Assembly (NCBI GenBank): GCA_035546535.1
Contig: DASZWQ010000012.1
Span: 1-64,000 of the forward strand
Length of the DNA stretch: 64,000 nt
Source: Pirellulales bacterium
GTDB taxonomy: Bacteria > Planctomycetota > Planctomycetia > Pirellulales > JACPPG01
Reading direction: 5' to 3'
Of the stretch, positions 14,158-64,000 are shown one piece after another; within the stretch, counting starts at the first letter, position 1, and the number at the start of each line of letters is the position of its first letter. The notes under the pieces were generated by a model. That model did not search any database, was not told where the DNA came from, and saw nothing but the letters and a program-made list of their open reading frames with translations. The position numbers and the translations under genes were made by a program.

Positions 14158-14231
<74 letters not shown>

Positions 14232-62863: not shown

Positions 62864-63085
62864 CTATCGCAGCGACACCGTTCGCGAACGGCCTTCGTCA
62901 TCGATCGCGATCTTGTGCTCGCGGGCCAGCCAGCCAATGGCTTGCATCACCACGTCGCGCGGAGCGTCGATCTCTTTGATCAGCCGGGCAATCGTTTGCG
63001 GTCCCTTGTCGGACAACGCGCGCCAAATGGCGCCGGCCGTTTCGCCGATCTGCGTGATCGGGCACACTTCCGTAGCACTTGCCAT
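62864..63085 (-). CDS. small winged-helix protein (DUF2582 type)
   Basis: A 73-residue protein reading QIGETAGAIWRALSDKG, PQTIARLIKEIDAPRDVVMQ and AIGWLAREHKIAIDDEG. This matches the DUF2582 winged-helix family, with a helix-turn-helix and a wing, though whether it binds DNA is uncertain. The ATG at 63085 is preceded by GAGGAG. The frame is open upstream to 63373, but that part is unlike the family. Confidence 0.85.
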   Translation of the reverse strand: MASATEVCPITQIGETAGAIWRALSDKGPQTIARLIKEIDAPRDVVMQAIGWLAREHKIAIDDEGRSRTVSLR

Positions 63086-63333: not shown

Positions 63334-63377
63334 AAAAAAAGGGGCTTGGTTGGCCTGCGGGGTGGCCAACCAAGCCC
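63334..63377 (-). terminator. strong intrinsic terminator on the minus strand
   Basis: GGGCTTGGTTGGCC and GGCCAACCAAGCCC form a perfect 14-bp stem with an eight-base loop. On the minus strand it is followed by seven or eight T residues (63334-63340). It ends a transcript coming from the right, either the structured RNA or the gene at the window edge. Confidence 0.9.
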
Positions 63378-63600
63378 TTTAGCCGTGAAAAGGTGTTCCT
63401 GCCCGTCCCGGGCTTGCGTCGCGGTTCATCGCGACGGATGGCTTAGATTCACGGTCCTGCGAATGCGGGCGTCGGAATTCGGCCCTGAGGCTGCGGGAAG
63501 CCCCAGGGCTGAGTGGGTCTCCGACGGTTTACGGCTTGATGCAGTTGGTGTGCCAATCGTCTAAGACTTGGCGTCGCGCTCGCCGGTATCGAACGAAACC
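63378..63600 (-). ncRNA. candidate structured non-coding RNA
   Basis: The stretch just before a strong minus-strand terminator can fold in several nested hairpins. The outer pairing is AGCCGT (63533-63538) with ACGGCT (63381-63386). Inside are GTCGGA/TCCGAC around GCCCTG..CAGGGC and GGCT-TCCCGC-AGCC, and then CGTCGCG-ATGAAC-CGCGACG. It is not a recognised Rfam family to me. It lacks the signature sequences of RNase P RNA, tmRNA and SRP RNA. The 5' end and promoter are not determined; a size of about 200-260 bases is a guess. It may also be the 3' untranslated part of the upstream gene. Confidence 0.5.
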
Positions 63601-63667
63601 CGCCGGCTGGTCGTCATTTGCGCTTCACGAATGCTAGCAAGCCATCGTTGCCGCGCAGGCGGACGCT

Positions 63668-63684
63668 CTTGTAAGTCTTACAAG
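63668..63684. promoter_or_regulatory. perfect palindrome
   Basis: CTTGTAAG-T-CTTACAAG, 8+1+8 and exact. It lies between the unknown gene at the window edge and the structured RNA candidate. A T-G-T-A-A-N-T-T-A-C-A core is typical of dimeric repressor or activator operators. It may control the RNA transcript that ends at 63334. Confidence 0.5.
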
Positions 63685-63739: not shown

Positions 63740-64000
63740 TTAGCGTAACAGGCTGGTCGTGATCGCGCGAAAAATCTCTTCAATTTCGGCAAACTCGCGA
63801 TCATCGGCCTGGCAGAAAATCACGTAAGCCGCGTCCCGGGTGCCGTAACTGCGAACTTGTGCGGTATTGGTCAGGTCGAGGCAGTAGAAATTCATGTCGT
63901 AGCCGACCAGTTCCTGGCCGGCGATCGTTTCGCGGACCTCTTCTGCGTCGAGCTCGTCGTACTGCTGGCGCATGGCTTTGAGAGCCGTCGCCGCCAGTTT
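63740..64000 (-). CDS. hypothetical protein, C-terminal part
   Basis: The last 86 codons of a gene running off the right edge. It reads LAATALKAMRQQYDELDAEE, TIAGQELVGYDMNFYCLDLT, NTAQVRSYGTRDAAYVIFCQ and FAEIEEIFRAITTSLLR. An internal ATG at 63973 exists, but the frame stays open to the edge, so the true start is outside. The strongly patterned alpha/beta end is unlike any family I can name. It has no signal peptide in view. Confidence 0.7.
   Translation of the reverse strand, partial: KLAATALKAMRQQYDELDAEEVRETIAGQELVGYDMNFYCLDLTNTAQVRSYGTRDAAYVIFCQADDREFAEIEEIFRAITTSLLR

Follow-up and report, generated by a model that had tools for sequence, protein, structure and literature searches.

Near the end of the 64,000-nucleotide stretch of Pirellulales DNA analysed here (the window) lies an interval that an initial annotation had read, at 63334-63684, as an unrecognised structured RNA with a strong terminator and an upstream palindrome. 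The question raised by this locus is whether it is a gene in its own right and, if so, how the gene is switched on and what its product does. We confirm that the region holds an RNA gene on the minus strand. Our preferred explanation, to which we give a probability of about three in four, is that the gene stands alone and encodes a regulatory RNA of ~195 nt that acts in trans, driven by sigma-54 and an enhancer-binding protein (bEBP), whose product base-pairs with mRNAs without Hfq.

A conserved fold on the minus strand

Read 5′ to 3′ on the minus strand, the locus consists of the palindrome, a 17-mer promoter, a strongly folding stretch and a terminator, all lying between an uncharacterised gene, here called X (ending at 63740), and a gene for a DUF2582 protein (starting at 63085). 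We placed the start of the RNA near 63530, 12 bp past the -12 element, and its 3′ end at the T-run, giving a predicted small RNA of ~195 nt (63334-63530, minus strand) that is backed by its folding score, by homologues across the order and by covariation in its 3′ domain. The folding energy of the predicted transcript (63530-63335, minus strand) is -97.6 kcal/mol, as against a mean of -67.2 (sd 4.6) for 200 dinucleotide shuffles, none of which folds as well (z = -6.6).

The predicted fold has three separate domains, all on the minus strand. A GACCCA motif near the 5′ end (63514-63519), a candidate seed, is followed by a 5′ hairpin (63479-63513) with the apical loop UUCCCG(CA) (UUCCCGCA loop), placed by the fold and by the position of a CCCGC loop. 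The P1 stem, which is helix 1 in our alignment of 46 sequences, pairs CCGUGAA (63448-63454), itself followed by conserved UCUWAG, with UUCACGG (63383-63389). It closes the 3′ domain only, and the junction so formed holds two hairpins, P2 (CGUCGCG/CGCGACG, 63417-63436; helices 2 and 3) and P3 (GCCCG-GGA-CGGGC, 63401-63413; helix 4). Last comes the intrinsic terminator (63334-63377; helix 5), a 14-bp stem with an 8-nt ACCCCGCA loop followed by seven T.

Much of the initial annotation is upheld by these results: its 14-bp terminator with a T-run is present at 63377-63334, and its nested multi-hairpin structure is borne out by the shuffling. Its claim of an RNA gene also stands, while the extent it gave to that gene does not, since the span 63334-63684 mixes an activator site, a promoter and an RNA that itself takes up ~63334-63530. 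The palindrome was correctly reported (CTTGTAAGTCTTACAAG, 63668-63684), and its role is probably that of an activator site outside the RNA.

At the DNA level, a search recovered the region from three of four congeners and from two other genera; conspicuous in a first alignment of these relatives are the promoter, the palindrome, the terminator and the CCGUGAA...UUCACGG stem. With a covariance model built on the 3′ domain, the RNA was detected in 69 of 296 genomes and in 50 of the 121 genera of the order, nearly always as one copy. The order is Pirellulales: nearly all matches in a pattern scan of named genomes belong to Pirellulales, Pirellulaceae or Thermoguttaceae MAGs. A second covariance model, run over the class and the phylum, gave, outside the order, nothing but weak matches (E 3e-5 to 1e-3). 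We rejected these as terminator hairpins, nearly all of which are without any sigma-54 site and none of which has an activator site; matches at similar E-values inside the order were accepted, the promoter, the activator site and synteny with X often being present there. As judged by these searches, the RNA is restricted to the order Pirellulales.

Pairing was examined on a MAFFT alignment of the 46 sequences, made without reference to structure. The fold tested, in which P1 closes a junction with P2 and P3 and the terminator hairpin follows, gives standard pairs in 88.4% of pair cells, and compensatory change is seen in 31 of the 33 pairs. Double-change cells number 152, against 40.8 ± 5.3 in shuffles (0 of 500 reach 152), and as a control, displacing the partners by 1-3 columns lowers pairing to 32-51%. 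P1 is 94% paired with double changes in seven of its eight pairs, P2 has them in all six, P3 is 81.7% paired, and the terminator stem is 92% paired with double changes in 14 of 15. In some homologues much of the P1 stem is exchanged, as by AACACGAA/UUCGUGUU in L035, CUAUGAA/UUCAUAG in L049 and GUCUCAAA/UUUGAGAC in L056. Comparison with relatives for compensatory changes had been called for at the outset, and a lack of conserved pairing named as a ground for refutation; the covariation contradicts that possibility.

Two homologues depart from the usual form. In one genome, two model matches lie ~200 bases apart (L067; G110:C30:55876-56211), a split or duplicated RNA. In another (L241; G248:C494), a long insertion between P2 and the 3′ strand of P1 lies several hundred nt past the promoter, so the length of the RNA varies within the family.

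A sigma-54-type control region

The 17-mer TTGGCACACCAACTGCA (TTGGCAC-N6-TGCA; 63540-63556, minus strand) reads directly as a candidate sigma-54 promoter. Its -24 GG and -12 GC stand exactly ten bases apart, and this GG-N10-GC spacing we take to be the sigma-54 -24/-12 signature. In 60 of 70 homologues the motif is found in the 230 bp that precede the model start, against 0.76 expected from shuffles; for the same 70 homologues, the opposite strand yields 0 and the downstream flank 5. About ten of the 70 have no recognisable sigma-54 promoter.

Farther upstream lies the putative bEBP site, an upstream activating site (UAS; CTTGTAAGACTTACAAG, 63668-63684, minus strand) with the consensus TTGTAA-N3-TTACAA. 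Some 110 bp separate the palindrome from the promoter. Of 59 homologues, 55 keep at least 10 of the 12 consensus positions, the site lying mostly 88-158 bp ahead of the -24 element, and shuffled controls almost never match the consensus. Sites of this type with at most one mismatch number only one to five per genome, and there are only two in the window's own genome. We infer that the palindrome is a conserved site for a sigma-54 enhancer-binding protein. Judged by its layout, the control region has the architecture of a bEBP-activated sigma-54 promoter, and the RNA is apparently switched on by the sigma-54 machinery.

The mechanism that we propose would run as follows. The bEBP would bind the palindrome, centred ~146 bp upstream of the predicted start, and contact sigma-54 RNA polymerase on the -24/-12 promoter through DNA looping; when its signal is present it would start transcription of the RNA, which would then end at the strong intrinsic terminator. 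The gene for RpoN (sigma-54) is found in all 16 genomes tested, and PF00158 has 7-24 matches in each of 11 genomes, some of which are not true bEBPs. A comparison of four genomes showed four bEBPs to be shared by all or nearly all of them. We attempted to choose the cognate one by its conservation; candidate A, a receiver-less AAA+/Fis protein, is also 60-66% identical in sister orders, so that conservation does not allow a choice.

Mode of action and rival explanations

Two sequence elements of the RNA draw attention. GACCC is present in 38 of 60 homologues, and in most of them its distance from the promoter hardly varies. For CCCGC there is an enrichment (1.45 per transcript against 0.60 in shuffled sequences), and 54 of its 87 occurrences fall in apical hairpin loops, where the background is 10%. 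A general habit of terminator loops was considered as the cause and rejected, given that only 1 of 23 other terminators of the same loci has the motif. RNAs that target G-rich ribosome-binding sites by pairing typically have C-rich loops. We regard GACCC near the 5′ end and the CCCGC apical loops as the likeliest contact surfaces, and the RNA would most likely base-pair with mRNAs through these exposed C-rich elements. It is important to note that GACCCA and CCCGC are missing from some families; the pairing surface may therefore differ there, or may not be the functional part.

Hfq was sought with one Pfam model (PF17209) and found in none of six genomes of the order; among 14 control genomes, this model had a match in 5. 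This is only suggestive of an absence of Hfq in Pirellulales. As Hfq was not found in these six genomes, pairing would presumably be unaided or proceed via another protein.

The main rival to base pairing is that the RNA, transcribed just as described, is a protein decoy like CrcZ, CsrB or 6S, its partner being sequestered at the repeated CCCGC hairpin loops and the P1 junction. The enrichment of CCCGC, its position in apical loops and its rarity in other terminators would fit this as well; the RNA is highly structured, and a protein might bind at its conserved UCUWAG junction. CrcZ itself has many CA motifs and sequesters Hfq/Crc, whereas no Hfq match was obtained in the six Pirellulales genomes. 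Against a decoy, the motif is found only 0-4 times per RNA, mostly once or twice and far below the count in classical sponges, it is missing in several families, and there is no candidate protein. We consider this explanation improbable, though it deserves to be kept in mind.

Both remaining possibilities that involve the neighbours turn on gene order. Gene X (63740-64000, minus strand, its 5′ part lying beyond the window) encodes a protein of ~140 aa with no Pfam, NCBIfam or PDB match, and stays beside the RNA down to ~27% identity. The downstream neighbour (62864-63085, minus strand) encodes a 73-aa winged-helix DUF2582 protein (Pfam PF10771, E = 7e-16). If the RNA were a cis-acting leader of this gene, an attenuator or a riboswitch, one would expect what is in fact seen, a conserved fold of junction-like form and a terminator that separates the promoter from the gene, and in 24 of 70 homologous loci DUF2582 does follow the RNA in the same orientation. 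In most homologues, nevertheless, the fetched flank contains no DUF2582 gene, and in three (L019, L039, L047) the gene is upstream and in the opposite orientation, so that no fixed sense position upstream of one gene family was found. The DUF2582 gene has in addition a -35/-10-like site of its own (TTGAGC-18-TATAAT at 63226-63197), no competing antiterminator is apparent, and few helices are as well conserved, or covary as well, as that of the terminator. A leader function is accordingly very unlikely.

Still less credible is an origin in gene X, with the structure as its 3′ untranslated region or as a product of RNA processing. In 34 of 70 homologous loci X precedes the RNA in the same orientation, and in 3 it has the opposite one, yet X is separated from the RNA by a conserved sigma-54 promoter and activator site. 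The cassette is moreover inverted relative to both neighbours in L039 and L047, and relative to X in L054, G050 and G107. Because of such inversions in relatives, the RNA would be neither the 3′ end of X nor the leader of DUF2582, and the arrangement (INDEPENDENCE from neighbours) indicates that the cassette is neither a leader nor a 3′UTR. The inverted cassettes also answer a refutation test set in the initial annotation, namely that the RNA might be transcribed solely within the message of the upstream gene. Its central proposal, an independently transcribed small RNA, is supported by the covarying pairing, the dedicated conserved promoter and the terminator, and a trans-acting RNA remains our preferred reading.

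We then consider known RNAs. Searching the whole window with 4227 Rfam families at gathering score left the RNA unmatched, as had been stated at the outset for RNase P RNA, tmRNA and SRP RNA, none of which has a match at that threshold. A permissive scan of the region gave chance-level matches only (best E = 0.24), and those to ar14, mir and Moco-II were rejected as such. The sole match in the window is a tRNA gene at 14158-14231. As for 6S RNA, which had been left open, it consists of a single long hairpin opened by a large bubble at its centre. Its model (RF00013) finds no match in the window or the whole genome, so that a diverged 6S could have been missed, and the length and single copy would fit; the three-domain fold with P1 closing the 3′ domain only, the sigma-54 promoter with its activator site, odd for a housekeeping RNA, and the lack of any 6S score even in the permissive scan make it scarcely believable that this is the missing 6S RNA of the lineage.

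Several sRNAs are known to be controlled in a comparable way. The Qrr sRNAs of Vibrio (sigma-54, LuxO) are trans-acting, sigma-54-dependent and driven by an enhancer-binding protein, as we propose here; they are ~100 nt, Hfq-dependent and often multicopy, in contrast to ~195 nt and normally one copy, and the Rfam search shows no similarity. GlmY of Enterobacteria has a sigma-54 promoter activated by QseF/GlrR (PMC7073468). Like the Pirellulales RNA, it is a single-copy intergenic sRNA of similar size, and its sigma-54 promoter needs a bEBP, as we propose here; it has an overlapping sigma-70 promoter as well, and there is no Rfam similarity between the two. The CrcZ and CrcY genes of Pseudomonas, under sigma-54 and CbrB (PMC6296734), share with what we propose for our locus the control of sRNAs by sigma-54 and inverted-repeat subsites for a bEBP that also controls protein genes; the CbrB subsites are TGTTAC/GTAACA, as against TTGTAA-N3-TTACAA. 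On our best reading, the locus encodes an sRNA that acts in trans and belongs to a small sigma-54 regulon, with control that would resemble that of GlmY or CrcZ and a sequence unrelated to either.

The sole planctomycete candidate for a structured RNA that we met in the literature is the Rhodopirellula-1 motif, a probable cis element of Planctomycetes and Proteobacteria that has no Rfam accession in the table of its source (Weinberg et al. 2010, PMC2864571). That range and cis assignment differ from an RNA that appears restricted to one order and independent of its neighbours, a distinction drawn by description only. With this proviso, and because no Rfam family matches and the activator site differs from that of CbrB, the RNA is on present comparisons a new family of the sigma-54-controlled sRNA kind. 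Our search of the open-licence literature found no prior description of it, nor a characterised sigma-54-controlled sRNA from Planctomycetes.

A second gene with the same promoter architecture

We scanned 296 genomes blindly for the activator site followed, after 98-128 bases, by TTGGCAC, and obtained 16 matches, against 3 in a reversed control. Twelve are known RNA loci, one is a weak model match (in G248) that is thereby confirmed, and three, from three different families, lie upstream of orthologous genes for a small protein of ~90 aa. This protein is hydrophobic and membrane-like, with a C-x-x-C-G-A-like motif; a family search gave no family above cut-off. It is present in 28 of 35 genomes tested, and 14 of 26 regions upstream of its gene carry the UAS and a sigma-54 promoter at the expected spacing, where 0.0 were expected. 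The window's own genome is among the 14 (G000:C184:5301-5546, L259; the homologues are L249-L274). There, as in G032 and G211, the gene lies between redoxin-like and BON-like genes, names that we assigned by eye.

From this shared promoter architecture it is most likely that the same activator also drives the gene for the ~90-aa membrane protein, and one bEBP would then express the RNA and this protein together. Tentatively, and at somewhat less than even odds, we suggest a planctomycete-specific sigma-54 circuit in which one bEBP controls chiefly one structured sRNA and this membrane protein, whose gene neighbours one for a redoxin domain; the sRNA would regulate mRNAs through CCCGC and GACCCA, apparently without Hfq. 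If true, this would be a post-transcriptional circuit linked to the envelope, for which no counterpart is known outside the order. Planctomycetes have an unusual cell biology and many sigma-54 activators without an assigned role. The locus offers, order-wide, a complete testable unit of activator site, promoter, RNA and terminator together with a second regulon member, and could help to trace the activator, together with the signal to which it responds, and to learn how sRNAs operate where Hfq is undetected.

The other near-perfect UAS in the window's genome (G000:C144:24709) was set aside, there being no sigma-54 promoter nearby. At this site (L136, ~1501; also L137, L138 and L134), TTGTAAAGTTTGCAA is followed by a conserved block near a secreted-peptidase-like gene. 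The block reads AATCTACCCAAGAT in two congeners and is near-identical in a third; the site itself is found in three congeners and partly in G036.
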